From contig JAGTJL010000018.1 of the NCBI GenBank assembly GCA_020746875.1, positions 1,178,001 through 1,242,000 of the forward strand: DNA of 64,000 nucleotides, given 5' to 3'. The DNA is from Rhexocercosporidium sp. MPI-PUGE-AT-0058. Taxonomy: Eukaryota > Ascomycota > Leotiomycetes > Helotiales. Under the pieces are notes generated by a model. The model was not told where the DNA came from. It did no database searches and saw nothing but the letters and a program-made list of their open reading frames with translations. Below, piece after piece: positions 17,280-52,253 of the stretch (positions are counted from its first letter, which is position 1; every line of letters begins with the position of its first letter). Made by a program: the position numbers and the translations under genes.

Positions 17280-18335
17280 TCACCTCATCTTTCCTTTCGG
17301 ACCCCAATAACCACACAACCGATACCCCAGCATCTTACTCGCTGCACTGGCCACTCCAGCAAGCAACATCCAAGTGAATAGCTCAACCACCGTCACCAAC
17401 ATTATAGAGGTAAATATCAGTCCACCAGCAGAGTAGTATAAACCCCAACAGAATTGTGCCACCCAATGCTGTTCTCCACCCTGGATGTTGTTGGACACTG
17501 GAGCCGTGGAGCTGCCACTCTGTCGGTGGTTGGCATTTGAAGAACCAGGCACTGCAACTGTCGATCTGCTATGCCCATTGATACCGCTTAATGTTTCTTC
17601 GTCTGCCGACACCAGAACGGTCGACTTGCCAGAAGTCCCAACTTCGTCTGTTGGAAAACCTTTTTGCCCCGAGCCCACGCCTTTGCCTGATTTATTCCGA
17701 TTTCGAAAGCGACCGATCGCGACTTCGACGGTCGCTGGTGCCAGAGCAACAATGAACCAAAGTACCACAAATGCTGGCACCGGACATCCTAGAGACGACC
17801 GTTTCGAATACACCTCCATCACCGCCAACAGTCCGTAAGACACTAACAAGAAAGCCACTAGCAGCACGAGTATCGCTGCAGAAATGATGGGTTGGAACAG
17901 CCGACCTTTCTTGATCTGCGTAGGATCCTCAGGGATAGTTGGATTCAGCCCTAACGCCCGGACAATAATCTCAATCACCCAACCGCTCTTGCTCGCGATC
18001 AATACGATGCGCTGTTCAGGCCATGCGATATCTTTTAGAATGAGAGGGACGAGCGCCATCACGATAGAGATGGCACCATATTGCTGTTTGCGAGTCTCTG
18101 GCACGAGGCCAAAGATGCAGTCAGCGTACCACCAGCACGCCATATTGTCCACAAAGTCAGGATCGTCGCCGCCGGGCCCACTGGTCAGGTTCGTCCACGC
18201 GCGGAACCAGGGATTGAAAGGTTGTGTGGGTGCCCATCCCAGGCCGTCGCAGAGTTCTGAGGAGTTGCTTGCGAGACTAGGAGTAAGGAGGTATATGCTC
18301 AAGATGACGAGGCTGAGTCGAGAGAAGGAAGCCAT
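17280..18335 (-). CDS. hypothetical four-TM protein with signal peptide (351 aa, single exon)
   Basis: An uninterrupted 351-codon frame. Residues 1-22 (MASFSRLSLVILSIYLLTPS...) form a classical signal peptide. Residues 23-80 are extracellular-like with Cys29, Cys67, Cys73 and NSS/NLT N-glycosylation sites. Hydrophobic spans at about 84-102, 149-173, 186-205 and 302-330 look like membrane helices. Residues 209-290 are a polar Ser/Gly/Thr-rich loop. The start context is good (GCGAAAATGGC). This layout occurs in lineage-specific fungal proteins of unknown function; I do not assign a role. The plus-strand frames across it are antisense shadows. Confidence 0.75.
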   Translation of the reverse strand: MASFSRLSLVILSIYLLTPSLASNSSELCDGLGWAPTQPFNPWFRAWTNLTSGPGGDDPDFVDNMACWWYADCIFGLVPETRKQQYGAISIVMALVPLILKDIAWPEQRIVLIASKSGWVIEIIVRALGLNPTIPEDPTQIKKGRLFQPIISAAILVLLVAFLLVSYGLLAVMEVYSKRSSLGCPVPAFVVLWFIVALAPATVEVAIGRFRNRNKSGKGVGSGQKGFPTDEVGTSGKSTVLVSADEETLSGINGHSRSTVAVPGSSNANHRQSGSSTAPVSNNIQGGEQHWVAQFCWGLYYSAGGLIFTSIMLVTVVELFTWMLLAGVASAASKMLGYRLCGYWGPKGKMR

Positions 18336-19089
18336 TTTCGCGGTTCTAAAGGAGCAAACGCGCAGGAAATTTCAAATCGACAAATATGACGGGTGCAAAG
18401 CCAGAGAAAGAGTAGCATATGAAGAAAACAAAGAAGAAGAAGGGGAAGTGGACCAGGCTGCTGAAGGCACAGTGAAGAGATATATCTTGAAAACCGGCCC
18501 TCAACTGATTCTTGTCAACCCCCCTGTCCGAGTTTATTTCCGGACCACTAAAGGGCCCATGCTTTAATATTGCGCTGTGATCCCAAACTCGACCAAGCCG
18601 CACTGGCTTCCCTAATTGGTCAAGCTAGTTGTCACCACGTCTTGGACTACGAACGGGACCATCCGCACAAGCGCTGTCTGTAAACACCTCCTTCTGAACA
18701 GGCTGATGCACGACCACTAGGTCACGTCAACTTCGCTTCCGACCATATCTGGGATCGCGAGTGGTTCCGATTTATGTTGCAACACACAGAGAGAGGTACG
18801 ATGACAGGGCGCGATTTTGACATGATTCTTGGGGTGAAAGGGGCCATACCTGCCAGGTTAGGCGCTTGCTACGATTAGGGGTCCTATTTCAGGACGTGGT
18901 GCATATACTTACGCAGGGCTGAAGTACAGCAGAACGGATTGCTGATGTGGCTTTTGCGGCACAGCACAGGTTGCAATTCTTGGCTCTATGTTGTGGTGTG
19001 TTACACGAAAAGTCGTCCGGGACTTCCGGCGTATTGCTGTCTTACATAATCCCTCCGCAAGCTTCCGGTGCCTGGGGTCTTTACTGTCA
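18336..19089. other. upstream region of the membrane-protein gene and spacer
   Basis: Includes the presumed promoter of the minus-strand gene; no convincing TATA box. A plus frame beginning at 18947 runs into the Fot1-derived repeat at 19090 and is not believed to be a gene. Confidence 0.45.
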
Positions 19090-20190: not shown

Positions 20191-21194
20191 TGGTCGGTTG
20201 TTCTATATCCGCCGATCGAGCAACCACCAGCTCTAACGGCGTGCTACAAATCTTCTCGGAATGAAGGATACTGTCCTGTAGCAGGAGCAGGGTATTGTCG
20301 ACCACAGTATTCAGCTGGTACCCAAAACAAAGATGGAATCCAGTTTGAGGGTATCAATATACCAGTAGGCATGGAACCCTTCCGAGGCCTCGGTATTCTG
20401 ACTGGCGTCGGTCGTCTTTGAGGCTACGGCTCCTTGTTCTGGATCCCACATATTTTCATAATTCTAGAGATCCATGTAGAACCAAGATGTGTGCCAAATC
20501 CGTCCGACACCGTCATCCCGATCTCGTCGAGCTTGAATTCTCCACCGTCCGAAGCAAGTCTGGAGACACTTCCCTAAATCACCCCGCAGGTTTGTCCTTG
20601 TCTATGTCATAAGGTCGACCGCCTGGTTCTCAATCATCCATGCCTGCCTCGACTTTGTTGTGGCGCTTCATGTTCCACACCGCAGCTTAGAGGCTTGTTT
20701 TGTAGTTCTTTGCGAGGGGATGGATGTGTGTGGAGACATGGACGCCCTCATTGACATCCACGGCATGGCCGCGACAACCTCGAGCGGCAGGCTCTTCATG
20801 ATTTCTTCAACGTAAGCTCGAGCAATCGACCGCTGGTCGCGTCATAGGTTGGTTCTGGGCCAGCGCGATCATTGGGAGAACGAAATGAAGTGTGCTTGTA
20901 TTTGCTTACGTTCTATCGTTACTTGAGTTGCGCGAACCGCATAGACTGTTTCGAGCGGTTGTATTGTATGTAGGTCTCGGGATTCGGAACCATTGGGATT
21001 ACTGCGCCACTGTGGCTGTAATTCATGTCATCTGCGTTGACAACTCATCGAGCACTTTCAAGCTCTGATAATGACAAGCCTCATCAAAACACGTCCAAAT
21101 ATATCCATACATCAAACACAGCCTATTCAATTATAACTTCTCAACCACACAGAGAGGTACTTGCGCAGGACCAACGTGGCTTCTTAGGCCTGCC
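20191..21194. other. GC-balanced spacer, no supported gene
   Basis: Several short protein-like stretches in different frames (plus: GTQNKDGIQFEGINIPVG at ~20320-20375; 20418-20612) suggest a decayed gene, but frames are broken and no family is recognised. The last 150 bp is the likely promoter of the HET gene. Confidence 0.4.
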
Positions 21195-21218
21195 TTGACT
21201 TTCGTTACTGAATCGAAC

Positions 21219-22490
21219 ATGCACTCGGGAGCCCGATGGCACGATGCGACGTGCGCCGCTCCACTCCTTAGCATCGATAAGTGTAGTAGAAAGGTTCAAT
21301 GCCAGACTTGCAGTTCATGTCTTCATCTGGACAAAATCGTCGCCAATCATACTGCAGTCAGTCCAGGTCTGTCTGTTCCCAAAGATGAATCTGAGGAGAT
21401 GAACTTATTCTGGCCTCTCTCTGTCCCATATACAAGAAGTGACCAGGCCACATCACTTGCTGGTGACAAGAGAAATCTTCAAGTTGGCGATTGTGTACGG
21501 AAAGATGCTCCTGTCGATCAAGTGAGCACCTCTCCAGTCTACATACATCGCCTTCAGCCCAGCGAGTTCCGCCTTGTCCATCTCGATGCGCCGCTCAGTG
21601 GTGATACAGACAGCCCGGTACATGCAGAGCTCAAGACTTATACTCATGACGATTGTCCAGAGTATGAGACAGTCTCTTATACCTGGGGAGGACAAGAAAA
21701 CGACAGCACACCTTGCAAGCCAATATCCATAGGTCCTTATTGGGATGTTCTGCTGCAGACAAAGAATTGCTGGGATATGCTTAAGCTTATGCGTCCATCC
21801 AGTGGGCAGCGAGTGGTCTGGGTCGATGCCATCAGCATCAATCAAAGTGATCAAATCGAGCGAGCCGATCAAGTAGCCAAGATGGGTCGAATTTACGAGG
21901 AGAGTATGCGGGTGTTTGTGTTTCTTGGGAGTGATGTCGTACACCCGATTGGAAATGCCTCATATCTAACAAGAAGAGAACTACACCACCTTACTCGAGA
22001 ATCGATGAACAGTGCCCAAGAAGGCTCGAGCCTACCTATCGTCTCTAACCTTGGTCGTCTTCTCGAGCTCAGATATTTCAGTCGAATCTGGGTTGTTCAA
22101 GAATTGATGTTATCTCGACAAGCAACTATTCGAATCGGGTCTTCAGAATACTTGGTCGATCACCAGACGAGCCGTAACATCGCAAAGAAAGATCCGACGC
22201 GGAGCTGGGATAGCACCGCAGCTCCTTGGTTTCAGCATGCAGGTCAGCGATATTTGACGGCAGAGGACCGGAACAGCCTGCTAGAAATGATGAAGTTAAC
22301 TTGGAAATGCCATTCTACTGACCCAAGAGACAAGGTGTTTGGCATTCTTGGTCTTGACCATTGGGAGCCTCCCATAAGACCGGACTACTCAATTTCAGTG
22401 AAACATGCCTTCATCGGCATTTTCGCTCATTGTCTTATTAATTTGAGAGACACTCGGGTGCTTTCTTGGGCTTCTGGAATCTACAGATAG
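21219..22490 (+). CDS. HET-domain (heterokaryon incompatibility) protein, probably truncated by a stop
   Basis: 423 codons from ATG 21219 (the frame opens slightly earlier but without ATG). The HET domain spans about residues 147-297 of this start: YETVSYTWGG, VVWVDAISINQSDQ, GRIYEESMRVFVFLG, RYFSRIWVVQELMLSR. A following CHSTDPRDKVFGILGL box and PDYS are also typical. The stop TAG at 22488-22490 falls inside the conserved region: the same frame continues SGCPSWIPAWNSPMAF for 28 codons, as intact homologues do (normally W...PSWVPDW). So the C-terminal part is lost by one nonsense change, or the stop is real and the protein is short. N-terminal ~100 residues are not conserved. Composition is normal, no RIP. 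Confidence 0.7.
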   Translation: MHSGARWHDATCAAPLLSIDKCSRKVQCQTCSSCLHLDKIVANHTAVSPGLSVPKDESEEMNLFWPLSVPYTRSDQATSLAGDKRNLQVGDCVRKDAPVDQVSTSPVYIHRLQPSEFRLVHLDAPLSGDTDSPVHAELKTYTHDDCPEYETVSYTWGGQENDSTPCKPISIGPYWDVLLQTKNCWDMLKLMRPSSGQRVVWVDAISINQSDQIERADQVAKMGRIYEESMRVFVFLGSDVVHPIGNASYLTRRELHHLTRESMNSAQEGSSLPIVSNLGRLLELRYFSRIWVVQELMLSRQATIRIGSSEYLVDHQTSRNIAKKDPTRSWDSTAAPWFQHAGQRYLTAEDRNSLLEMMKLTWKCHSTDPRDKVFGILGLDHWEPPIRPDYSISVKHAFIGIFAHCLINLRDTRVLSWASGIYR

Positions 22491-32244: not shown

Positions 32245-34307
32245 CACCTTAAGTGCGACAAACACAGCCCTTCAGGCTGTGCCGCCTGTAGCGACACGCT
32301 AAGTGGCCCCGCATTACAGGGCATATTGGCGCTAGTGCGGGATGTCAACAAAGACGTAAACAAAGCCTCTATCCCTACTAAAATCCCCATATTTTGACAG
32401 CATTCACGATGCCCACTACTGAAGTTCAAGATCCTACTGATGCGGGAACCCTCCGACCGAACGAAAAGCCCTTGGCCGCTAAAGGGACGCATTTTGAGCC
32501 TATGGAACTACCTGATTTTGACCTAGAGCTGCACTTACCTGAGGATGTCAGTCCGGACGATCCAATTACTCTTTTTACACAATATTATACGCCAGAAATC
32601 GTTGATCGAATAATTGAAGCAACAAATGCTTATAAGAGAGATATTCCCCCAGATACAGTCAAATCCCGTGCTTCTAAATGATACCCTACGACCCGCAAAG
32701 AGCTCTACTTGTTTCTAGCCTTTTGTATCTATATGACGATAGTTCCTATAAACAAAATATCAGACTACTAGAGTACTTATCCTATTACTCCTTTCCACTC
32801 AATTACCAAGTGTTTCTCCCGGGACAAGTTTCAAGAGCTCCGATTGCGATTCAGGATTTATATGCCTAGCGTTGAAAATACATACGAAAAGGTATGATAA
32901 CTCCACTAATTATTAATGAAATTCGCTGATTTTTAAAATAAGTAGAACCCCTTAACACGCACATTCAAGAGACCAACTGCCGGCTTTGGATCCCTAGTAG
33001 AGACCTAGCTGTAGACGAAGCAATTCAGCGATATCAAGGCCGGTCTAAGGAAAAAACGACTATTCCAAATAAGCCTACTCCAACAGGACTAAAGATATAG
33101 GTAGTGGCACAACGTGGTTTCTTCCTCCGATAGGTCTTCCATAAGCCAGGAAGAGGGAATGGACCTATCGGTATTTCTCAGCCAAAGAACCTCAACAAGA
33201 CGCAGTCTGTGGTACCATATCTTTTAAAATTATTACCGAAAAGAGCATATCATGTTTATGTCGACAACCTCTTTACAAATATGAAGCTTTTTGAGCACCT
33301 ACGGAAGCTAGGCTTTAGAGCTACTGGCACAGCAAGAACCTCTTCTGGAATCCTTCAAGATCTTGTTGATTTGAAGAAAGGAGATCACGGGACAAATGCT
33401 ATGCCATAGGGGACCGTATATACCTTCCCTACGGAGTCGAATATGGTCAATCAAACTGGGTTTAAGGATAGCGCCTTTGCTCTTGCTATATCGACAGTTT
33501 AGAACGGAATCAAGAAGGTATTACGCCTACGCAGACGGCCTAAGGAAACAGCCTCAAATGCTCGTACATCCCGTGTTCCCTTTGGAAATCAAGCTACCAA
33601 AAAGCTTTGGATTCCACAGCTCTACGACGCCTACAACTATAATATGGGAGCTGTTGATCTAGGAGACCAATTGCATGCATATAACAAAGGAAAGAGACGC
33701 CTTCGCCGCGGACCAGTACAAGGTCTTATGCAATTTATGCTATTAGTTGTACTCTCTAACTGCTTCTTAATCTGTTATCATTTTGACTACGAAGGAGAGC
33801 GCTCTATTAAGCTCCTTAGTCAAGACGATTTCAGAATACAGCTTATTAAGGCATTAATAGCCATAGGAAAGGATGCACCCGGATGTCGAAAACGCAGCAA
33901 TTCACGTATCTCTGAAGACCAAATTGAGGTGCCAGCACACCGCCATGAGCTAATCAAGATATCTACAAGAGCAGACTGTGCTACGTGTAAAAGAGGTAGG
34001 ATTTAGGACCGTCCCCGGAAGCGTGTTGCCTTGCAGGAAATTGCTCTGAATACTAGCCGTACTAGCCGCCGAAATGCGTCTTGGTATGGCTGTAAACAGT
34101 GCCAACTGTGGTTTTGTGACAATCAACGTTGCTTTAATATATATCATAAAAGATAATTAATCAATAGCTGCTCAAAAGACTGATTTTATATGGTAAATGA
34201 GGGGGTTTTAGCAGGCCTGAATTTTAGTGAGGCTCGCTTAATTAGCGAGGAGCTACAGGCTGTCCTACAGGCTCTTACAGGGTGTGTCGCGAGTCGCACT
34301 TAAGGTG
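32245..34307 (+). mobile_element. piggyBac-fold DNA transposon, copy 1 (2,063 bp)
   Basis: Ends are inverted repeats: left CACCTTAAGTGCGAC at 32245, right GTCGCACTTAAGGTG ending 34307. The flanks are TAT on the left and ATA on the right, compatible with an AT duplication in a TATA target. Subterminal sequences also correspond (GGCTGTG.. / GCCTGTAG..). The single coding frame between them is the transposase pseudogene. Same length and organisation as the element at 39034-52245 after removing its insertions. Confidence 0.85.
32409..34156 (+). pseudogene. piggyBac-like transposase (DDE_Tnp_1_7 fold), stops at former Trp/Gln codons
   Basis: From ATG 32409: ELPDFDLELHLPEDV, TLFTQYYTPEIVDRII, then a TGA at 32679-32681 where W is expected, YPTTRKELYLFLAFCIYMTI, SRDKFQELRLRF, AVDEAIQRYQGRS, AYHVYVDNLFTNMKLFEHLR, GFRATGTART, YDAYNYNMGAVDLGDQLHAY, NKGKRRLRRG and a Cys-rich end (CATCKRG ... 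CKQCQLWFCDNQRC) typical of the C-terminal zinc ring. The Asp residues in VDE, VDN and VDLGDQ fit the DDD catalytic set. Stops are scattered through, mostly TGG to TAG/TGA or CAG to TAG: moderate RIP. The two larger frames at 33209-33409 and 33644-34006 are pieces of it. Confidence 0.85.
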
Positions 34308-34765: not shown

Positions 34766-37011
34766 TCAAACAAGAACAAATTCCTTCCATTCGTAACAAT
34801 CAAACACAGTTGTAAAGAACCCTTGAAAACTTGGATCGTCTTTCGTAACTCCTAAGCCGACTCGTCTCCACTTGTCCGCCTCATCCTCATCTGGGACAAG
34901 GAGCAGAAAATATACTGATTTAGTTGGCAGCCGCCCGTCATAGATGTACTCTCCGATCCAAACGGCCAAGCACTCGTCTAGTATCAACTCCAAATCACCG
35001 TCATCACAGAGACCCATTGCGAAGTGCTTGCCAACTGTATCGAAAATTCTCAACCGGTAACGGGCGGCGGGAAATCCAATCGTATAGTATTCAGCCTCGA
35101 TCTTCCATTTTTCCGGGATCAAACCGATAGTCGACTCTTTGGATTCGCATCGCACGTTTTTGCTCAGGGCTCTCAAGGTTATGGAACCTCTCAAGATAGC
35201 TCCAAACTTGTTAGATCCATGAGGCTCAACTCTCTGACGTATGATCGAAGCATCGTTAGTGGAGAAAGTGCGTTCGTCCTCGTAGGGTGCGAAGATAACA
35301 GCTCCATCAACAGCTGCCCAGGACCAACTTGGAGCCCGATAGGTATCTGCTTCTCTGGGATAGGAAGGGTAAGTGCGGCCACCACTCTGACGCCTATCCT
35401 TTAGCCATAGTAGACTTTGCGAGTCCTCTGCCCACAGTCCAGCCATATAATTGTATCCCGTTATCGTACTAAACACTGAGGCCAAGGCCGATATTGCCGG
35501 AAGTCGATCTGAAGATCGGCTCAAGGAGCGGCGAGTGTACTGCCGTACTAGTCTGTACCACACTGCAAATGCTCCGTTGCTTGGAGAATGCGGATCTCGA
35601 TCCATGTGCTGTAACACACGCTTGAAGTCATCACCTTCATAATTTGACAGGGAGCGCGAATCCACGGGATCAATATGCTCCGTCGCACTTCCTTCTCGCG
35701 CGGAGCAAGTCTTGCACTCCCAGAACATCTCATGTGAGCTAAAATGCAGTATTCTAGTCGATAGAAGCCGTTCTTGTAATGTCCAACCCCGTTGACTGAG
35801 TGCCGCAGTCTCGAAGATCTTCCTGCGACCGAATTCCTCTCTCGGACGAATGTAGACATTAGAGGTCTCGGAAAGCCTCAGAACTTGCGTCTTAGGACGC
35901 GAGTGAAGGAAACCCTCACTACTTCCTGATGCAGACAAAGCGGAAATAGTGAGATAAGCATTCTCATAATATTCTCCCATTCGGACACACTCGGTGGCCC
36001 AGTCATCTTCATCATCTTGGATAATGCACAGGGAATCAACCCAAAGGAAATCAATACCCAGAGCCCGTGTAACAGAGATTGCATCTTGAAAAGTCTTCGG
36101 GAGATCACCATATTTGATGCCTTTTTCGTGGCATTGAAAATTCGCCTTTGTGGTTTTGACAGCCCTATCTTGTCCCCAACAATATGAAAGTGCTGCGTAG
36201 GCAGCTTTTTTGCGTTTTGTACAGAGGATTGGACAAGTTGCACTAATATCGAGAAGTCGAGTTGGAACTGAAATGTTTTTGCTCTGTTTGCACCTTTTGT
36301 GTTCGATGGTGCAACTTGCAAGCCAGCTTCGTGCGACATTAAGGCATCCAACCTCAAATGGATCTGGCCAGATATTACGGAGGAAGATGTGATTGATGGC
36401 ATCTTCGTGGTTCCCTAAAGCACATTAGATATCAATCTCCGAGGTAGTTCCCTCTGCATACCTCGTTCTGTGAATAATTCGAAAGGAGTTGCTGGATACC
36501 CTGCGTACTTGTACCACAAATTACAGGTCTCTGGATCGATTGTTAGGTCAGCGGAGCAGAAAGTGTCCACCTTCCTAATATTGGCAACGAAGAACTCGCA
36601 CAGTGGACATCCCAGCGTGGCGCTTTCTTTCAGTATAGGGTATCGATGATGGCCAAATCCATACGAGCTAGAAGTGTCGATTTTCTGGCACATTATACAA
36701 CGGCCAGTAGGGTCGCTCCCGAAGGAAAATCTGAATCGCCACTTCATTGGGAACACTTTCCAGGCTGTACCAAGTATACCTGCATTCGGTGTGCTGTTTA
36801 AAGCTGCAGAACGGCTCAACTTTTTCTCGTCATCCTTCCAGGGCCGTGGTTCTGTCTTGAATGTAAGAGGTGGATAATTTGGCTCTCCTTTAGTTAGGGA
36901 TTTGAATTTATCAGGCCGAGGAGGATCTTCATCGTCGAAGATGTAGTCGTCCCAGTTAGGGTCCACCACGTCTCGTCTCAATCCTATGGTGGTGAAAATA
37001 TAATGCAACAT
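34766..37011 (-). CDS. HET-domain protein, intact, two exons (~732 aa)
   Basis: Exon 1 is 37011-36462; a 47-bp intron 36461-36415 (GTATGC ... TCTAAT branch ... CTTTAG) is removed; exon 2 is 36414-34766. The junction reads FELFTER-GNHEDAINHIF in one frame. Exon 1 holds a Cys-rich piece (CIMCQKID, CPLCEFF) common ahead of the HET domain. The HET domain is at about residues 256-395: YAALSYCWGQD, LPKTFQDAISVTRALGIDFL, WVDSLCIIQDDEDDW, YENAYLTISALSA, LSQRGWTLQERLLSTR. The C-terminal part contains RLPAISALAS, YMAGLWAE, YRAPSWSWAAVDG. All expected boxes are present without stops. The gene would act in non-self recognition and programmed cell death after hyphal fusion (family knowledge). It lies 400 bp from the transposon block yet shows no RIP. 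Confidence 0.85.
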
Positions 37012-38997: not shown

Positions 38998-39213
38998 TAT
39001 TGGTAGAAGCTGAAATACTAAGTTACTGCCTATCCCCTTAACTGCTGGACGCACACTTTCCAGGGTGCAGCGCTAAAGCGAAGCGCTAAGTGGCCCCGCA
39101 TTACAGGGCCTATTAGCGCACGGTCCAGAATAAATAACAACATAAACAAAGACCCTCTTTTACTATTACACCCTACCAAAACTCTACAAAAATCAATGCA
39201 ATAATAATACTTA

Positions 39214-39969
39214 CATCTGCAAAAAAATCGAGAAGCGGACGTCCGCCAACGGCGCCAAAAGCGCCATTTTGGCGCTTTTGGAGCCAAAGTTGCATGTCGA
39301 AAATTTTGGGGACAGTTTCTCACCATAGTAAATTAAAAGCGCGCCGAAGGCGTAAAAAGCGCCGAAAGCGCCAAAAGCACCGAAATAGACTAGCGTATTA
39401 TAACCCCACTTTTAAAAGTGGGGCTTTATTATTTTATTTTATTTAATATATTAATAAGGTCTATAAAAGTATTAATAATATTAATAATGTATTAATAATC
39501 GTTATAATATAATAATAATAAATATGCCTCTTATCACGCCCGATTAGGGCTAGGGCCGGCTAGTGTACGCATATAATTTACCCGAAACGAACGATTTTCT
39601 TATTATAATTTTTTTAGCGTGGATATTCATAGCGTGAGAGCTTTAGCGAGACTAGTTTTTAAGACGTGCCCGACGAAATATAAGCGAAACTTAAAATTAA
39701 CGCTAATCTAACCGGATTCGATTAATTAAAAAAACGCCAAGATATATTTTTTTAAAATTATAATATTTTAGCGTTTAAATTATATTTATAGAAATTACTT
39801 AATTAGGCTTAGCGTTTATTAAAATAAAACTGGCGCTTTTAACACTAGCGACCGATTAAAATTTAAAAAGGCGGCTTTAAGCGTTAAAAGCGGCCTTTTA
39901 GCGAAAATGGCGAACATGGCGAAAATGGCGGATTTGAATTCTGGGCGTCCGCGAAATTTTTTGCTGATG
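39214..39969. mobile_element. 756-bp TA-flanked MITE, GC-palindromic ends, inside piggyBac-fold copy 2
   Basis: Ends: CATCTGCAAAAAAATCG and complement of CATCAGCAAAAAATTTCG, both followed by GCGGACG. TA sits outside each end (39212-39213, 39970-39971). Next to both ends are repeated GGCG/GCGC words (GGCGCCAAAAGCGCCATTTT left; GGCGAAAATGGCGAACATGG right) that can pair. The centre is AT-rich without coding. Copy 1 of the host transposon lacks this segment at the matching place, proving insertion. The minus frame 39030-39326 spans the junction and is not a gene. Confidence 0.85.
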
Positions 39970-40354
39970 TAGATTCGCATTTTAAGATCTTACCGATGCA
40001 GGGACGCTAAGGCCTCTTGCAGAGCCTTTACAAAAGGGGTCCGATTTCCAACCGGTCGAATGTCCGGATTTTGACACAGAGCTACGATTACCGGCAGATG
40101 TATTTATTAATAATCTAATTACCCTTTTTACATAATATTACATACCAGAAATAATAAATGGGATCGTCGAAGCCATTAATTCTTACGAAAAACTAGTTAA
40201 GGACGATTCTTTACCTTTATATCCGAGTTAATAATTCGTTCTCTATTACTCGCAAAAAGATTTACTTATATTTGGCCCCTTTCTTATTTACATAACAGTA
40301 TTCCTTATAAATAAAATCGAAAACTATTAAAGCACTAAAAGGTTTATACCTTTC

Positions 40355-40562
40355 TGGTTAGTCCGTAGGGATTCTTACCGATATGGAACTATAGCTTAGG
40401 GCCGAAACGGTGGGGTTTCGGTGGGGTTCCGGACCGGTATATAAGGAGCTTTACTCCCATCTTAGAAGGACACACCTTACAACACCTTTGAAATCACTTA
40501 ATAATATCGATATTTATTCAGGTGACTTTGTTGTTATATGTCCCGGTACAGTTATACCGACA
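40355..40562 (+). mobile_element. solo LTR (208 bp) of an unknown retrotransposon inside piggyBac-fold copy 2
   Basis: Starts TGGTTAGTCCG, ends ATACCGACA, flanked by TTTC on both sides (40351-40354, 40563-40566). Contains a TATA box (CGGTATATAAGG, ~40434) about 120 bp from the end. Absent at the homologous place in copy 1. No second copy of this LTR was found in the window. Confidence 0.75.
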
Positions 40563-40952
40563 TTTCTATTATATTACTAAATACTTCGCTCGAGATCGTT
40601 TCCAGGAACTGCGAATGCGATTTAAATTATTATCTTACTAAAGTAAAGATTTATATAAAAAGGTATATATCTCACTTATTTTCTGATCGATTTGACTAAT
40701 TTTTGCTTTAAGTAGAACCTCTAAATACTTATATTTAAGACAGCAATTTGCGGCTCTAAAAGCCTAGTCATGACGTAGCAATAGACGAAGCTATTAAACG
40801 ATATACTAGCCGGTCAAATTAAGTTACTACGATTCTAAATAAGCTTACACCAATAGGACTAAAAATATAAGTTATTTTATAACGTGAATATTTTCTCCGA
40901 TAAGTATTTTATAAACCAGGAAGAGGTAAAGGACTTATTAATATACGGAAAC

Positions 40953-41136
40953 TGTGGTATAGAAGTGGATTAAAGCGCTGTAAGCAGTTGTAATTGAATT
41001 AAAATGATTAATTATTCTTTTAAAAGCTTTAAGAATTAAGAGAAAACAGTTGTTCTTTTAAAAGTAGTCTACAGTAGCAGAACTTAATTAAGTCACGTAT
41101 AGTATTAAGAGAGCAGCTGCCCGTGCTTATACGACA
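40953..41136 (-). repeat. Copia 3' LTR
   Basis: 184 bp, plus-strand ends TGTGGTATAG and TTATACGACA. Pairs with 48683-48866 and with the split solo LTR at 49175/51257-51433. Confidence 0.9.
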
Positions 41137-41529
41137 CACCCCCTAGGCAATTAATAGTAATAAGCCACTGCTATTGTAATTAGCTGTATTAAGCGAGAGT
41201 AAATAATAAAAAAGAATTAGGCAAATAAATTTACTTATATATAGTAATTAGGCAAATAATTTAATTATATAAATTAACGATTTTCTCACTAAACTTAAAC
41301 CTATAAACACTCGACAATACACAGATCGACTACTTTCGATTTACTACTTAATTAATTTATTAATTAATTAATTAATTAATTACTCCCTTCGACACTATAG
41401 GTGTCTTCAAGCGCTCCGCCAGAATCGTTATAGCAGAACGACGATCTGCTTATTAAAGTAAGGTAAGTAGCTCGATTTTCAATTTATTAGTTTCGATTTA
41501 TTAATCGGAGATTAATTAATTAAAGAATA

Positions 41530-42468
41530 ATCGCTGACTTATAATAAGTTAAGGCTATTATTAATAATAAAAAGAAAGTCGTCGTTAAGGCATAATTATC
41601 GGCTGCTCCCGTCCCCGCCCCCGCTCCTCGCCGTGCCGCTACTGCTCCTCGGGCTTTAAAGTAATTAATAAGTGCTCGTATAATAGTCTATTTAAGTTAT
41701 ATTAATAGCGTCCTCTAAATAAATAGTAGTAATTAATATTATAATACCGTTAGAAAGGGTGTTTATTGCTTCGCCTATTCGTTCGGCCATAAGTGCGTAA
41801 TTACTCTTATTACTGCTTAAGCTCCTTTCCTTATATATTATAATACGTTAGAAAATAAAACTAATAAAAAGGTAAGTTAATTTAATTACTCCTTTTTTGC
41901 TTTTTAATTTATTATTAATTTTTTTAAGAGCTAAAGTAATTAAAAATCCCGGTCCGTACCGCCCTTAAGGGTAATAATATTAATAAAGCTATTATTACTG
42001 GCGCTACTATTGATTTTAGTAATAGAATTACTTTAAGAACTATTAATAGATTCGAAGGTAATAATAAAGATAATAATAATAAGGAGAACGGTAAGTTACT
42101 TACTTTATTTTTAAAAAATTAAATTAATTTAATTAATTTCTTAAAAGAAGAAAAAGAGCCTCTAGCTATTTTTATAACTTATGCTCGTATTACTAAAGAG
42201 AAGATTACTGCGGCTGCGGGTACTTTTTTCGTTAAGAAGAGTGGTGAGGGAATAGCTAATTATCTTACTGCTACTACTACTACTGAAGTTACTCGCGCCT
42301 ATAATCTTAACCCTAGTGTTTTAGCCTTTTAAGCTATGTCTACTTATGGAGTTATTCTTACTCTTAAATAAGAAGCTTAAGCTGCTCGCGTTAAGGAGCT
42401 AGTTAATGTAATAACTAATGCTTTAAGCGAGCTAATTCAGGAGGTTTTAGGCTTTTTTATTTTTTAAT
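41530..42468 (+). CDS. antisense reading frame with two putative introns inside the Copia element
   Basis: Between the pol end and the 3' LTR the plus strand is coding-like while the minus strand is not. Reading through RIP stops: an Ala/Pro-rich part (SAAPVPAPAPRRAATAPRAL, ~41607-41660), YYNTVRKGVYCFAYSFGHKC (a possible small zinc site), then GTAAGT at 41872 and AG at ~41930 mark intron 1; exon 2 reads IITGATIDFSNRITLRTINR, FEGNNKDNNNKEN; intron 2 is 42091-42147 (GTAAGT...TTAAAAG); exon 3 reads EEKEPLAIFITYARITKEKI, TAAAGTFFVKKSGEGIANYL, TEVTRAYNLNPSVLAF, ARVKELVNVITNALSELIQE, ending ~42468. No family recognised. Start unknown; currently broken by RIP stops, so inactive here. Confidence 0.45.
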
Positions 42469-42849
42469 AAATAAATTACTCTTTTATTTTTTAAAGCTTA
42501 AGAACCTCTTACTTTTTAAGTGTCCCTTTATATTTTAAAAACTAAAGCTTACGTTTCCCTTTAAATTAAAGAATCGTTAAGAGTAATTAACTCTTTAAAA
42601 TATAATAATTTATACTCCTAAGCTTAGTTAATTTTTAATAAAATAAAATTATAAATAAAAATTTATAAAAGAGAATTTTATAAAAGAATATATAATAATA
42701 TAAATAAAGCTTTTTAATTAAAAAGTAAGCTTATTATATAATTACTTTAAGAATAAATAAAAAGTAAAGAATATATATAAAAGACTACTTTAAAACGAGT
42801 CTCTTAAAAGAGTTGCTTTAGTTAAGTATAAACATTTACTAAGTTAATA

Positions 42850-45800
42850 AAAGTAATAAATGCTTTAAATTTCTGTCGAAAGAAGTTTTTAATAAGTCTA
42901 TTAATTAATATATAGCCTATAAGAAGATATTCTATTATAAAAGTGCCCTTTTAAAACTCTTAGCGCAATTATATATTTTAAATATTAACGTGGCGTAACT
43001 TAGTAAAAATACGCTAATTTTTACTAATAATTAACCGAATTATTTATTAATTATTATAAAAAATTATCTAAACTATTCTTATATTAAGGCGTAATTCTTA
43101 AAAGAATCGCTAAAGTATTATAAGTTTCTTGCCGGTGCGCTTAATTTTAAAAAGCTTTATTTATATTATAAATATAATAATTATATTTTATAAAACTACT
43201 CTTTAAAGAATTAAACCTTTAAAAAATATAAAAATATATTTATTAAAAGATTACTTTGTCTTAATATTATCCGCAAAAGAAGCATTTAATATTATTATAA
43301 AATGAGAGTCGCGTAGCTTATAACCATAAGTAATCGCTAAGAAACGAATGTTGAAAAGGTAACGAATTATTTAGTTAATTATAATTAAGTGCTTTTAAAA
43401 AGGATTAATTAAGAAATAAAAAAGCCTTAAAATAATAAAAGCGACGTCTACGCGTAATATAATTGTAATATAAAGTATTAATTTAACCTTTTCTTAAAAT
43501 TCTTTAATTTAAACTAAAGTGGCCTGTTTTAGATTTTTTAATAGCTCGACTTAAAGTAATAATATATTTAGGCAATTTTTATTTATTAACTCAAATCGAA
43601 GAGTAACCTTTTAAATATAAGTATCGTATATTAAAGAAATAATCTTTACTAATCGATTTTTAATAATATAAACGCTTAAGAACTACTCCGTTTACTCTCC
43701 TTCGATAAGCTTATATATTATATTTAAGCCGTTAATAATTAATTTAACGTCTTTAAAAGCCGAAATATAATAGAGCACTTAAATATCGTCGACATAAAAT
43801 ATTATAAACATTATACGTTACTCGTTTAAATATATAAGGCTCCTCTTTATAAGCGATTAACCTTAAAGTTGTTAAAGTATAAGTGAAGTTATTATATTAT
43901 AGCGCCGGTAAGTCCCTGAGTCCGTAAAGTACGCAATTAACCTTTACTATTATTCCGTCTTATTTAAAACTGTCCGGTAAATAATAGCGTATACGAGCAC
44001 TTGTCTTACTTTATTTAACGTTAATAAAGGCATTTATTATATTAAATTAAATTATTTTTAAATTAAATTAAGCTATAATAGCTATAGCGGTTTTAAAGGA
44101 GTAAATAACTAAAGTAGCTATATATATTAATAAAATTAACGTTTTAAGTTATAAGTCTCCTTTTATAACGACTTAAGAGCGACAGCAGGTTAAATACCCT
44201 AATGAATTAACTTTAGCGTGAAATACTTATTTTAAAGGAATTAATTACTTAATAATAAAGGTATATTTAACGACTTTTTAGTAATTACGCGACTTAAGGT
44301 TAATTATCTTTTTAATAACGTCGGCTCGGAAGTGCTCTCTTAACGAGTAGTTCTTAAGGTCTTTTTAATTTAATAAGTCCTTAAGCATTTATAATTAATA
44401 AATCCGTAGGAGCTTAACTAATTATCGAATTTCGATATTTTTAAATATAAACGCTAATATAATAACGTGAATTACGCTTAAGTCTTTTCCGTCTCTTTGC
44501 ACTAGTTCTTAATTAAGCCAGAAAGTCCTTAAAAAATCCTTTAAATGCTCGTAATTACTTAACGGTTATAATAATTCTGTAATTAGCTTTTTAATAATTA
44601 TTATATAAACGCTTCGATTCGGTTTCGTTACTTTACTATTAACTTAAGTCTTTCGACTTTTATTAATTGCTTAATTTTTTATTCTTTTCTTTTTAAGAGG
44701 TTTAAATAAGCCGGAATTTAATTCAATTAAAGCCAAAAGTAATAAGTATAAACTTAACTCTTTGTTTTCTTTTAATTCTAATAATTACAAATGCTTTTTA
44801 TACTTAATTACTTAAGGCAAAGTTTTTAATTACTTAAGGCCGACACTTTCTTTAAGTACTCTTTAACGCTTAAGACCGCGCTTTCGATTATATAACCCTT
44901 TAAAGTAAATTATAATTTATAATATTGGCTTCCGCTTAAGGTTTATATTACTCTAAAAGTTTAATATATTACGTAAAACACCTCTTTTAATTACGCTCTT
45001 AAACACTAATTATCTTAAAGTATCGGCTTATTTTAAGACTTAATTAAAATACTCGTAAATAAGAAGTTTAATATTCTTTTTTAATTAAATTACCCCCGAG
45101 TTCTTATTAATAAGCGATTAAATAAAATTAAAAGCTATTAAATTAATTAAAAATAGCGTATTTACTTTTATTAACTTAACTAAAGGGGAAGCAAATAGTT
45201 TTACTTTTAAGTATAAAAGCTTAACTAAAAGTTTTAATACCTCCGAGCTTATAAGCTTGTCGACTTTTATAGCGCTTATTGCTTCGCTTAGTTATTCTTT
45301 ATTTAAAGTAATAAATAATATTTTTAATTTTAATATATTAAATACGCTTAGTCGATTAATTATAATAAAACTAACGTCTTAATTTCCCTCTTTTTCTTTT
45401 AGCATTTTTATAAAATCTTTTAATATTAAGCGCGACTAGCCGACCGCTTTTTTTATATTTAAAGAGCCTAAATAAAAGAAGGTTTCGTTAAAAGTAATAT
45501 TTCGAGTTATTATTATATATTATAATTAAAGTATTTAAATCCTATAAATATTAAATAAAACGTATTTAATTAAGTAATTAAGGTGCGCTCGCGAGTTGAC
45601 TTTAAAAGCTCTTTTTTAGCGGAGAGCTTCTCGGTTTTTAATTATAAAGTAAGCTTTATAACCGTACGCATATAAGTTGCTTTAGTTAGGCCGTAAATCG
45701 GTTATTAACTTTAGCGTGAGCTTAGGGTCGTAATACTGAAAATACTGCCTAAACCAGGCTTAGAACACTTCGTTAAGACTCTTAAAGCCTTTACAAGTAA

Positions 45801-48600
45801 ATAAACTTATATTATAAAAAATAATTACCGCCATTATTAATTCCGTTTAAAGCGCCCGAGGTAAATTAGCGGAAAGGCGCATTTTAATTAATTTATCGAT
45901 TATTTCTTTGCCTACGCGCTCAGCTCCTTTATTAAGTTAGTATATATATAAGGAAGTAAATTTAATATTAATACCACTCTCTTTATACTACTTTTCATAC
46001 TTAATTAATTTATTAATTTCTATAACTAAAGTGTCGTTATCTTAGTGTATTTTATAACCCGAAAGCCTAAATTAGCGTCTCGTTTACGCCTTAAACAATT
46101 TAAGAGCATTTAAGACGGCAATTAACCCTTTAGTTTTCAAAAGCCGCCTATAAAATTTCTTATTATATTCGTCCTTAATTAATAAAAGCTAGTTATTTTC
46201 GTTAAATCCTATTAAAAAGTCAAATAAATCCTAAAAAATACAATAAAAAGGACGAGTAATTACTCTTTTTAATTAATAACAACTTATTACTTATTATACT
46301 ATAGCCACCGCATAATACTCGCATTTTAATCGAGTTAAGCCTTAAATCTCGATATTACGCGCATTTTTTATTAAGTTTTCTAAGGCTTCCTTTCTAAATA
46401 ACCGACGCGCAGATACCATAAGTAAGCTTCGTCGACTCGTGGTTTTAAATATCGTCTACTTAATTAAAAACCTTAGCAAATACTCCTCTTTAGCGTTAAA
46501 AACATTAAAAAGTTATAATTTAAATAAATTAAAATACGACAAATAATTAAAAAAAACCGAAAAGTAATTAAAAGGCTTATATTTAAAGAAAGCTAAGTTA
46601 AATTATCGCTATAATTACTTTAAAACCAGACTATCTTTAGCTATTCTTATGCGTAAAATATAATTTAAACTATTATATTAAACTCTTACTTATAAAAGGC
46701 GAGCTTTTAAAATAATATTAATATTAAAGCCTTTAATAATTACGACGTTCGAGAGGATTAAATCGCTTATATTCAGTCCGTTAAAGCCGTGGAAAGCACC
46801 TTTAAAGACTCGAGTACCGCGCCCCTTAATTATTAAGCTTAACGTTCCGGCCTTAACGCTATCGTCCGTAATAAATTTAATAAAGTTTTCGAGGACAAGA
46901 AAAGCTTTTAAATTTATTAAATAAGTAATAGCTCCGTTATCGAGTAAGGTATTCTCTATAAGCGGATAACGATTTATATTTATAGTAGCGTATACTTCCG
47001 CAATAATAAGAGCTTCGTCGAGAAATTTAAAGCTTATAAAGTAAGTTTAAACGTTTTTAAGGTATTTTACTTTTACTAAAGTAATTAGCTTTAGAGCCAT
47101 AAGAGTTATTAGTGCCTAAGTAAAAAAGGAATTACCGGAAGGCGGTCTAGAAGTTAATTACGTTATTAATAATATATTCTTATTAAGTTTAATAATTTCT
47201 CGGCGGAAGTTAAAGAAGTCGCTCTTTAATTAAAGTCGAGTCTTTTTAATTTCTTTTATTAATAATAAGTTCTTAAGGTTGCTCGCCGTCGAGCCGTCGT
47301 AATAATACCGAAGTCTATAACAATTAATAGCTTTATAGCGGTGAAAGTAATACTTATACGGGTAAGTATTTACTTACGTGTTTAGCGACTGGTTTCGTTA
47401 AACCGACGGGGTTATAAAAGCATTTGATTTTTCTTTAAGAATAATATATAAGCCTATTATCTTTTATTATTTAAAGGCTATAAATAATTCTTTATTAAAA
47501 ATAAATAATTAATTAACGTAATTAAATAAAAAGTATTAATTTACTACCTTAAGAGCATTATTTCTTAATAATTCAGAGTGTCGTTCGCGCGCTTATTCTA
47601 GTGCGAGCTTCTTTTACACCGCCTTAATAAAGTTAAGTACTATTAGCGGTCCTTTAACGTTTAATAAGTCGTATAAGAAAACATCTTAATAAGCCGCTCT
47701 TTATTTTTAAAGCTATTCCTTAAAATTAACTTGCCTTACTTTAATAACAGCGAGCTTCTTCTTATAAGTAGACTATGCTAGCGTGCGAGCACTTATTTTT
47801 AAAGAGGCGTAATCTTTTTTAAGGATCTAAAAAAATAATTAAAAAGTCTATAATTTTAATTAAGGGTCTTCGTTTATTATCTCGGTCAACTACTCCTTTT
47901 CTATACGAGCTTACTCGTTCTCGTATTCCCTAACTACTCCTTAATAGACAGAGGAATTAACTGTTTCCTAAATCTACTTATAAACTGCTTTATAGGCTCG
48001 AGCCTTTTCCGACTATTATACGAGCTTTTTTACGTATTCTTTTATAAGAGTAACATATATTAAAGTCATATTCTTAATTATAGCCTTTGTCAGTAGTAAT
48101 ACGCTCAGCTTAAGGCCTTTCTTTATAAAGTCGCGAGTATCTTCGTCTTACTTCGCTTAAGCTTAAAAATTATACTTAATAGCTTTTTTATTTTATTATA
48201 TTCTTAAATTATTTAATAATAAAGGTTTCGGTTCGGCGTTAAAAAGGTTAAAAGCAATTAATAACGTAAGGTTTATTAAATTTTATATTTTATAAAAGAT
48301 ATAAAAGGATTTAAACGCTTAATATTAAGAAGTCTAAGTGCGCTTATTATAATTAAGAAGGGTTTAATTATTTAAAGAAGAAGCTAAAGTTAAGTTTATT
48401 ATAGCGAAAGAGTTACTCTCGTGAGCTCCGAGTATTTAATAAAAAAGGAAGGACTAAAGAGGTATTAAGTCTAGTTACTCGGCTTTTATATTTGTCTAAA
48501 ATGGAATCGAAGAGTTAATAGAAAAACAGCGGTGTAAATTATATTTTATAATAAAATAGAAAACTCTATAACGTATAATAAATGCTTTCTATTTATAAAC
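42850..48600 (-). pseudogene. Copia gag-pol, RIPed
   Basis: In element order: a gag-like, coiled-coil-rich part near 48200-47500 (ENERARIEKE-type, KKKLAVIKVRQVNFKE, RERHSELLRNNALKVV with stops), integrase region unresolved, RT motif FYVDDI at ~43784-43800 with following SAFKDVKLIINGL, then RNase H: YLFNIRFLAITYGYKLRDSH, FIIILNASFADN, TQIKLFKIKRTGKKLIIL, FTKLRHVNIQNI and the tail TGYILIN-LIKNFFR (normally ADGLTK) near 42870-42930. Stops at nearly every former Q/W codon. Confidence 0.75.
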
Positions 48601-48682
48601 TTGCCTTATAGGCTTTATTTAAATTAATAACGTATAAAAAGAAAAACATTAACTTAATAGCTTTATTAACGGGGCTTATAAT

Positions 48683-48866
48683 TATAATGTAAAAGTAAAT
48701 TAAAGCGCTATAAGCAGTTGTAATTAAATTAAAGTAATTAATTATTCTTTTAAAAGCTCTAAAAATTAAAAGAAAACAATTATTCTCCTAAAGGCGGTTT
48801 ACAGTAACAGAACCTAATTAAGTCACGTGCAGTGCCAAGAGAGCAGCTGCCCGTGCCTATACGACA
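48683..48866 (-). repeat. Copia 5' LTR (element sense)
   Basis: 184 bp; plus-strand start TATAATGTAAAAG is a RIPed TGTGGTATAGAAG; end CCTATACGACA. Contains the ACGTGCAGTGCCAAGAGAGC block shared with the solo LTR. Confidence 0.9.
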
Positions 48867-49174
48867 GAAACTAAAAGAGTTAAATAATATATAAGCTATT
48901 ATACCGCACTTATTTAAGCCTACTTTTACTAGTAAAATACCACGTTTATTTAGACGATTTGTTTACGAATATGCTTTTACTCGAGCACTTACGGAATCTC
49001 GGCTATGCTGCTACCGGTATAATACGTATATCTTCTGGAATTATCGAAGACTTAGTTTAATTAAAATAGAGTGATTATAAAAAGATAGCTATGCCGTAAG
49101 GAACTGTATTTACTTTTCTAAAAATATTAAATTTAATTAATTAAGTCGGTTTCAAGGATAGCGCCTTTGCCCTT

Positions 49175-51433
49175 TGTCGTATCCCTTCGTCCGCTGAGAC
49201 ATGGACTACACTAGTAAAGGTGGTATAGCCCGGCCGCAGCCAGGGAGGCGAAGTATTATTTTATATATATTTACGTATAATTTATATTAAAAAGTACTTC
49301 ACGCTCGTGCAGCGTCGCGTTGTCTTAACTAAATTACATTCTTAAGACGCGCCTTATTAATTAAAAATAAAGCACCTTCTTAATAACTTTAATTTTAATG
49401 ATTTAAAATCTTTACCCCTTAAAAAGAAGGTAAAACTTATATTTCTTAATAATATATTCGAAGAATTATAAGCGTCGATTTTAAATCTTTTAAATGTAAA
49501 CCCCCGCGGCATACTATAGCGACTTTATTACCTTCTTTTCTTTTTTCTATATACCTATTCGATTATTTTACTTTATTCTTTACGCTTACTTTTTTGCAAA
49601 TTATTACTTTTAATATAAATCATTATACGAACTTATAACGAATGCGAGTTAAACAAAAAAGGGCGCGAGAATAGCGGGATATAATATTAAAGGAAATATA
49701 CGTCTTTTTAGGGGTATTAATATATATAGGAATCTACGACGAACTACGTATTGATTTGTATTAAAATAAGGATATTAAGAAAGGCCTTATTTATACGATT
49801 ATAGCTTATATTACACTCAATCGTTATAAGGAGATTAAAAAGTATTATTATATTTTTAATATTAAGGATAACGAATATTATAGCTATTACTTATTTATAA
49901 ATACGATTTAATAATATAAAATAAAACCTTTAGCTTTAGAGATTTAAGTTATATATTAACGTTATTATTCTTCTTTTATAAAAGTCAATATTAATAAGCT
50001 TATAGTTCGATGCTTTAAAAGCTAAGTACTCTTCTTTTTTAAACTTAATAAACCTTTTTTAATTTATATTAAATCTTTATATATATATAAGATATTAAAT
50101 AAACTAATAAAATAAGGCTATAAAATCTTCGGAATCGTAGATTATAAGTACATTTATAATTAAGTATAAAGCTCTCGAGTCAAAAGATTGCAGTCTCTTT
50201 TTAAGCATTTAAAGCTCATTTCGATAAGCTCTTTTATAAGATTTTTAGTCTTATCTTTATTACGAAAACGCCTAGCGGTCTATCTTAATAATTATTTTAC
50301 CTTAATACTTTTATTTAAGGAGCTTCGAATCTATAATTATAGTACTATTAGTATTACACGCCTATATGCCGCATTATCGTCCAATTTCGCTGTTTTAAAA
50401 GCTCGCTTTACTAATTCTTTACCTTAGAATACCTTATTTATAAAAGTAATAAAAAAGACGCTTTATTTAGCTTAATAAAGTAATAATATTATTTTAGCTC
50501 TTAATAGCATTTATATAGTTAATTAAGCTGAAGATTTTCGAGTTAAATTACGACGGCGGCTAGTAAAAATATTAACTAGCGGTTAAATCGTTAAACAAAT
50601 ATTCGTAAATAAGTATATTAAAGAATTAATAATTCCGCGTTTTATTAATAATTATAATCGTTATATAAGAGGAGTTAATCTAGCTAATTAATTTAGAGAA
50701 GTATATAAGGCTCATCGAGCTACTTATTAAAATTAGTAGCCTTTCTTTTACTGGCTACTCGATATGTCTTATATTAACGTATATAAGTTATATCTTTTGT
50801 ATATTAATAGCTAATAGCTATTAAATTACTTAAAATTTAAAGTCGAGTTATACCGACGGCTTTTCACTTACTTAATAAAAGTGTAATTTAATTAATTATA
50901 TATTAATTTAAGAAGTAAAAGATTTTTTAATTTTAATTTATTTTATTTATATTTTTAGGGAAAGCTCTTAGCGCGCAATTATTATGCGTAATATATATAT
51001 TAAAGAAAGCGTTAAAAGATATTAAAAAAAACGGTTTTTAATCTTTAAAAAAACTATATAATAATTATAACTTTTATAGTATTTCTTTATATAAGGAAGG
51101 GGAGTATTAGACTTAATTTCATTAGCCGCATATACTTTATTAATAAAGTTATATATAAAAGTATATAAAATAATATATTAGGCCCTTACTTCGCCTCTTG
51201 ACTCCCGGCCCGCACCACCCTTACTAGTGTAGTCCATGTCTCAGCGGACGAAGGAATAGGCACGGGCAGCTGCTCTCTTGGCACTGCACGTGACCTAATT
51301 AGGTTCTGCTACTGTAGACCGCCTTCAGGAGAACAACTGTTTTCTCTTAATTCTTGGAGCCTTTAGAATAACAATTAATCACTTCAATTCAACTACAACT
51401 GCTCGCAGTGCTTTGATCCACTTCTACACCACA
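49175..51433 (-). mobile_element. solo LTR of the same Copia family, opposite orientation, split by a DNA transposon
   Basis: The LTR begins TGTCGTA at 49175-49181 and resumes TAGGCACGGGCAGCTGCTC at 51257, ending CTACACCACA at 51433. The pentamer CCCTT flanks it (49170-49174, 51434-51438). It is the complement-sense of the 184-bp LTRs and is much less RIPed than they are. It interrupts the transposase relic of piggyBac-fold copy 2 after FKDSAFALC. Confidence 0.9.
49183..51255 (+). mobile_element. smaller piggyBac-fold transposon (2,073 bp) inside the solo LTR
   Basis: Ends CCCTTCGTCCGCTGAGACAT (49183) and complement of TCCTTCGTCCGCTGAGACAT (to 51255); TIRs extend through ACTACACTAGTAA and a GCGAAGTA block, ~70 bp in total. 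AT is duplicated at 49181-49182 and 51256-51257 within the LTR sequence TATA. Transposase relic on plus, ~49640-50890: GLIYTIIAYITLNRYKEIK, LALEI-VIY-RYYSSF, GYKIFGIVDYKY, VYLNNYFTLILLFKELRIYN, FINNYNRYIRGVNLAN, FREVYKAHRATY, PFFYWLLDMSYINVYKLYLL. These are DDE_Tnp_1_7 motifs (normally VYLDNYFTS, RGVDLADQ). Different family from the 2,063-bp elements. RIPed. Confidence 0.85.
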
Positions 51434-52253
51434 CCCTTATTATGTCGGTATTTTAAGACGGAATAAAAAAGGTATTACGACTAAGAAAACGACTAAAAGA
51501 GACGGCCTATTACGCAAAGACGTTAAGGGTTCCTTTTAAAAATCAACCGATAAAAAAGCTTTAGATTCCTAAGTTATACGACGCTTATAATTATAATATA
51601 AGTGCTGTTAATATAAGAGACTAATTATAAGCTTATAATAACGGGGAAAGACGACTCAGACGTGGCGTAATATAAGCTTTATATTATTTTAAGCTTATAG
51701 CTATCTTAAGCAATTACTACTTGCTTTACTATTACTTTAATTATTACTTAGATTATAAAATACACGTTAATTTACGTAATTATAACGACTTTAGGATTCA
51801 ACTCGTAAAAGCATTAGTAGCTATAAGAGAAGATGCACTAGGATATCGCAAACGCTCTTATTTTTCCTTATTTAAAAACAGTTTAAAGGTCCCTTTTTAT
51901 CGCTATAAGCTAATTAAAATGCTGACGAGAATTAATTATATTATATGTAAAGGGAGGAGGATCGGGGACCGGCCGCGCAAATGAGTCGTATTATTTAAAA
52001 TTATTAATAAAATAAGCCAGCTAAGCGACAAAAAGTCTTTTACTTACGGCTATAAATAATGCCAGGTCTCTTTTTATAAAACTAATTATTTTAATTTATA
52101 TTATAATAAATAATTATAAATATTCAGTCGATTTAGTGCTACAGCCTGAGTTTTGGTGAGGCTCGCTTAATTTAGGCTGTGCGGCCATTGGCTACAGCGC
52201 TCGCTACAGCGCTCTTCAGGTGTGCGGCGAATAGCAGTTAAGGGGATAACGTA

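Follow-up and report, generated by a model that had tools for sequence, protein, structure and literature searches.

A nest of transposons in a Rhexocercosporidium genome whose piggyBac-type layers most likely duplicate AT at TATA

At what target does a transposon with a piggyBac-type transposase insert? TTAA is taken to define piggyBac and to follow directly from the geometry of its dimer. The question is raised by a 13,212-bp interval at 39034-52245 of a 64,000-bp stretch (the window) of contig JAGTJL010000018.1 from the ascomycete Rhexocercosporidium sp. MPI-PUGE-AT-0058. The interval is one dead fungal piggyBac-type DNA transposon hit by four separate insertions, and its first and last layers, both of piggyBac type, depart from their known superfamily in the target site. 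With a probability of about 0.86, we read the locus as a nest made of this dead transposon, its four insertions and an inner transposon, decayed by repeat-induced point mutation (RIP), in which the piggyBac-type elements duplicate AT at TATA. The components are as follows, with long terminal repeats abbreviated as LTR, terminal inverted repeats as TIR and miniature inverted-repeat transposable elements as MITE; a slash marks the border of an element.

39034..52245, plus strand: outer piggyBac-type element, 13,212 bp, interrupted four times, borders read base by base; left TIR CCCCTTAACTGCT, right TIR AGCAGTTAAGGGG
39032..39033, unstranded: left AT duplication of the outer element, TAT/CCCC, reading TAT/CCCCTTAACTGCT at 39034
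52246..52247, unstranded: right AT duplication of the outer element, GGGG/ATA, reading AGCAGTTAAGGGG/ATA at 52245
39214..39969, unstranded: MITE, 756 bp, TA duplication at 39212-39213 and 39970-39971
40355..40562, unstranded: solo LTR, 208 bp, TTTC duplication at 40351-40354 and 40563-40566
40953..48866, minus strand: Copia-type LTR retrotransposon, 7,914 bp, GAAAC duplication at 40948-40952 and 48867-48871, heavily RIP-mutated
40953..41136, unstranded: first LTR of the nested Copia, 184 bp
48683..48866, unstranded: second LTR of the nested Copia, 184 bp
49175..51433, minus strand: reversed solo LTR of the same Copia family, CCCTT duplication at 49170-49174 and 51434-51438, split by the inner element
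49183..51255, plus strand: inner piggyBac-type element, 2,073 bp, TIR CCCTTCGTCC, AT duplication at 49181-49182 and 51256-51257
32245..34307, plus strand: sister, a distant uninterrupted relative of the outer element, TAT/CACCTT...AAGGTG/ATA, with several stop codons

A sequence-only reading of the window had described four insertions, one of them itself occupied, in one piggyBac-type element, each with its own target duplication (TA, TTTC, GAAAC, CCCTT and AT). All of these borders hold to the base and every duplication is present at its place, including those of AT, for which the departure from the TTAA expected of piggyBac had gone unremarked. Subtraction of the insertions leaves outer pieces of 2,059 bp in total, reproducing the estimate of about 2,059 bp, and no stop-to-stop frame of 120 amino acids or more remains in the outer element. 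The same reading had offered the sister as an independent check of the junctions, to be refuted by large unexplained gaps or overlaps, and here only rough support was obtained. Each of the four junction scores exceeds the average of 100 shuffles by more than 14 standard deviations. The support is only rough because the segments share 65-76% identity with the sister and two pairs of neighbouring segments overlap on it, at 164-178 (15 bases) and 939-947 (9 bases); the junction alignments contain 26, 8, 15 and 0 gap columns.

The junctions are settled by an uninterrupted copy of 2,056 bp on contig C4 (L029), found with the last outer segment (89%) in the 62.7-Mb genome of 60 contigs from which all element copies in this study are taken. 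Blast pieces of the outer element cross this copy in order, and the five outer pieces tile it end to end (1-181, 182-561, 562-947, 948-1249 and 1250-2056), with no overlap and no base missing at any of the four junctions. Identities per segment are 89.4, 91.1, 85.8, 87.7 and 88.5%, with 1, 3, 0, 1 and 0 gap columns (5 in all), and the four 240-base junction alignments contain 0, 2, 1 and 0. The nest has three levels (outer element, reversed LTR, inner element), whose sequence is fixed by position alone; of the insertion order proposed earlier over three generations this part stands, and the nest gives no order among the four first-level insertions.

The flanks of related copies were then read across the genome. 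AT stands on both sides of all 39 two-ended copies (20 + 11 + 8 from successive surveys); 37 read TAT/.../ATA, one CAT...ATA and one GAT...ATA, and a TTAA target with a 4-bp duplication occurs in none of the 39. Similarity of the ends, inverted repeats, a flank-blind pattern or inspection by eye located 33 of these copies. Among the 39, the two ends of C3:327054-329038 are taken as a pair from their distance, and up to four mismatches were allowed in locating the second end of the C6 copy. The flank-blind pattern returned 58 inner-family ends, and flanks were read for 57: 52 are TAT (two on C12), with one each of CAT, GAT, TAC, TCT and TAA. Three PF13843 copies from a profile search, which have different TIRs (L073, L075 and L082), show the same flanks; among the 12 profile loci inspected, several of them already counted, L081 has no TIR pair.

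Related empty sites indicate what the target was before insertion. For 31 copies the two flanks were joined and compared with available sequence, 18 of them against the whole genome (40 of 161 candidates scored), and an empty site was found for nine: L034, L035, L043, L052, the inner element, L049, L050, L051 and L054. Once one AT is removed, the junction is gap-free for 9/9 copies; the gaps in those of L035, L043 and L052 lie off the junction, and a second match of L054 (C1, 131 against 123 bases) contains a gap whose position was not located. For the inner element, the Copia LTR serves as the empty site, with TGTCGTATAGGCAC in the second LTR of the nested Copia, and the left arm is only eight bases long because the LTR begins there. 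Leaving L051 for the weighing below, the empty sites read TATA except for CATA in one of the two of L034 and one of the two of L035, and AATA in L052.

The transposase of these elements belongs to the piggyBac superfamily by profile and by fold. Better-kept relatives carry PF13843 (DDE_Tnp_1_7), with E-values of 2.7e-21 and 1.2e-18 for the frames of L036, 1.5e-14 for L068 and 2e-10 for L043, and the piggyBac fold with its DDD triad is seen in a relative. Alone, the sister piece 33503-34003 falls below the cut-off (E 0.16); in the profile search of the genome, 32933-33760 scores 83 bits when read through stops. According to the available text of PMC7351741, the omega-loop residues R275, Y283 and K290 of piggyBac touch the hairpin and the adjoining major groove, and Y439 and N440 touch the hairpin loop. 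In our alignment N440 is kept in 41/41 rows and Y439 in 42, one of which is an exon-1 piece placed there through misalignment. By contrast, R275 is R in 0/38 rows, Y283 is Y in 0/39 and K290 is K in 0/39; the prevailing residues are T (21/38), T (33/39) and P (36/39), respectively. No row among the 38 that cover all three positions has R275, Y283 or K290, and neither does any of 13 distinct readable copies from this genome, several of them decayed. As we read the alignment, R, Y and K also occur in piggyBat, equally spaced. The omega-loop difference is a correlation in a small comparison and no test.

The most likely account is that this lineage duplicates AT at TATA and not at TTAA; it is built on observed borders, empty sites, AT flanks, the profile match, the fold of a relative and the omega-loop differences. 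The elements have a transposase with the DDD triad and the piggyBac fold but choose TATA, and their CCC...GGG ends would most likely be joined to target phosphates two bases apart, not four as at TTAA. An empty TATA would thereby become TAT/CCC...GGG/ATA with the central AT doubled, and the altered omega loop may take part in the altered target choice. We somewhat favour the broader view that one lineage of ascomycete piggyBac-type transposases has exchanged TTAA and a 4-base offset for TATA and a 2-base offset, and that the omega-loop residues contacting hairpin and target in piggyBac were replaced along with this change. Several observations weigh against this account. Six of the 39 copies (L036, L037, L044, L045, L046 and L054) were located via the word TATCCC and are not independent of TAT, because the word includes it. 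Three of the 57 inner-family ends (TAC, TCT and TAA) lack AT beside CCC, and no partner end was found for them; both empty sites of L051 read TGTA and TGTG instead of TATA; and 22 of the 31 copies, the outer element among them, yielded no empty site. The residue comparison rests on only two TTAA transposases, and among the aligned proteins the target is known only for the copies of this genome.

A further difficulty is that TATA is palindromic, so that duplication of AT leaves the same letters as blunt insertion of an element ending in TCCC...GGGA between TA and TA (TA^TA), with no duplication, and the letters are the same at every site examined. The ends of piggyBac itself are CCC. Blunt insertion would shift the end by one base from this common terminus and would be an unusual strand transfer for this class of enzyme; duplication is preferred because it keeps the CCC terminus, and we consider the blunt alternative improbable. 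The ambiguity is shared by the AT-inserting ATon elements, as described in the accessible portion of PMC3422177. The flanks TAT/CCC and GGG/ATA can also be read as TA/TCCC...GGGA/TA, that is, as duplication of TA by an element starting one base further out, and TA is what the available part of PMC3864998 gives for the piggyBac-like truffle element Ti-tr1. However, this predicts empty sites two bases shorter, and it is contradicted by the nine empty sites found, since 9/9 insertions need all four bases; duplication of TA is therefore hardly tenable.

The cut could instead have the 4-base offset of piggyBac and PiggyMac, followed by loss of one base per side in repair. The structures of piggyBac reportedly require an offset of 4 bp (PMC7351741, in the text available), and PiggyMac cuts four bases apart with only the central TA retained (PMC3408717, likewise in part). 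The same one-base loss would nevertheless be required on both sides of 39/39 copies, and a 4-bp TATA duplication, which would give TATA/CCC, is seen in 0/39; we regard this course as very unlikely. A different kind of objection is that the nest is ordinary and that AT targets of fungal piggyBac elements are already familiar from Repbase or from other papers; we find this rather doubtful. One truffle case is in print (PMC3864998, as far as its available text goes), and the piggyBac-related literature, in the portions available, gives TTAA. In the accessible parts of the literature searched, which exclude Repbase and most subscription papers, no piggyBac lineage was seen with a stated rule of AT or TATA. 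Nested transposons as such are an ordinary phenomenon in a fungus, of which this nest is a clean, base-resolved example.

Most of the nest looks as if it was degraded by RIP. The two LTRs of the nested Copia differ at 30 of 184 sites, all 30 by transitions, and segments B to E of the outer element differ from the C4 copy by 208 transitions and 11 transversions. The ratio (CA+TG)/(AC+GT) is 1.25 in the gene region, 0.34 in the nested Copia, 0.38 in the inner element and 0.85 in the MITE; it is 1.05, 0.70, 0.51, 0.46 and 0.60 in the outer pieces A to E, and 1.10 in the sister. Since RIP-type transitions make divergence no clock for the insertion steps, the earlier proposal to date them by LTR or TIR divergence fails. 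The remainder of the reversed LTR (51256-51433) has hardly any RIP signal (1.23) between strongly affected neighbours. If RIP spares short repeats, this weak signal is as expected.

Further copies of the MITE, of both LTR families and of both piggyBac-type elements are present in the genome. For the MITE (40 of 69 candidates scored) at least 51 matches were obtained, of which at least 26, itself included, span base 1-2 to 755-756; it contains no frame of 120 amino acids and shows the properties of a TA-target MITE (short, with TIRs, a TA duplication and many similar copies). The 208-bp solo LTR (40 of 62 candidates scored) has at least 40 matches. At least 32 of these extend from base 3-4 to 206-208, which confirms the right border; none of the matches listed covers the first two or three bases of the LTR. 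The Copia LTR (40 of 291 candidates scored) has at least 40 matches, of which at least 39 reach its last base, and the reversed LTR, with 84.8% identity to each of the two Copia LTRs, belongs to the same family. The interval 40953-48866 is of Copia type by its 184-bp TG...CA LTRs, its 5-bp GAAAC duplication and a reverse-transcriptase match: an RVT_2 piece (query window 29-643) matches 43257-43754 on the minus strand (tblastn, E 4e-10, 25% identity). Three of the 12 open pieces of the nested Copia were scanned against Pfam and showed no retroelement domain. The query piece itself, at the left edge of the window, is a fragment of a Copia-type reverse transcriptase with an open frame (RVT_2, 1.5e-21) and is much better preserved than the nested Copia.

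Several other piggyBac-type copies were observed. Two copies of 2,031 bp (L036:361-2391 and L037:430-2460) are identical, have different flanks and retain long open frames, which suggests that, in this RIP-affected genome, they moved very recently. Another pair of 2,077 bp (L074:1119-3195 and L076:1035-3111) is 99.3% identical over 2,083 bp, again with different flanks, and has perfect terminal inverted repeats of 118 bases (TAT included). At L050:301-9324 a relative of the inner element extends over 9,024 bp and is evidently another occupied copy. Inner-family ends also bound seven copies of about 150-165 bp (L093, L094, L095, L096, L097, L098 and C6:1170207-1170367), six flanked by TAT...ATA and the C6 copy by GAT...ATA, and outer-family-like ends bound four internally deleted copies of 375-378 bp (L031, L032, L033 and L034). 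At L068:233-413 several piggyBac-type ends are crowded into 200 bases, including two that stand back to back. Two frames with a HET (heterokaryon incompatibility) domain, at 21075-22487 and 34766-36421, lie in the gene-rich part of the window. The host protein at 17280-18368 shares 92% identity with a Leptodontidium protein, 85% with one from Rhexocercosporidium and 70-71% with two Cadophora proteins, which makes a helotialean ascomycete the most likely host.

A natural lineage that keeps the fold but duplicates 2 bp and uses another target would allow a direct comparison for the determinants of target and offset. If the account is true, offset and target choice are evolvable within one fold, contrary to a 4-bp offset mandated by the dimer, and annotation that requires TTAA would overlook or mislabel fungal elements of this kind. 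In the available text of PMC7351741, a 4-bp offset is said to be imposed by the active sites, and piggyBac alone is said to target TTAA precisely. With piggyBac of Trichoplusia ni and with piggyBat, the fungal elements have in common the transposase family, the fold, the DDD residues, conserved cysteines near the C-terminus and a length of about 2 kb with inverted repeats; unlike them, they have AT at TATA on both sides and not TTAA, their proteins lack R275, Y283 and K290, and the gene has one inferred intron. Ti-tr1 of the truffle Tuber indicum, for which the accessible part of PMC3864998 reports TA and no TTAA and calls the classification unclear, is likewise an ascomycete element with a piggyBac-like transposase (DDE_TNP_1_7) and a 2-bp duplication; it differs in the reported TA and in its 52-bp TIRs, and the text seen does not mention empty sites. 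The ATon elements of the mosquito Aedes aegypti resemble the fungal ones as TIR elements that insert at AT, with related empty sites as proof, but they are non-autonomous, their transposase is unknown and their host is an animal (PMC3422177, in part). PiggyMac of Paramecium is a piggyBac-related enzyme that also acts at a central dinucleotide and not at TTAA, whereas it is domesticated and excises internal eliminated sequences through 4-base overhangs centred on TA (PMC8086355 and PMC3408717, in the portions available).

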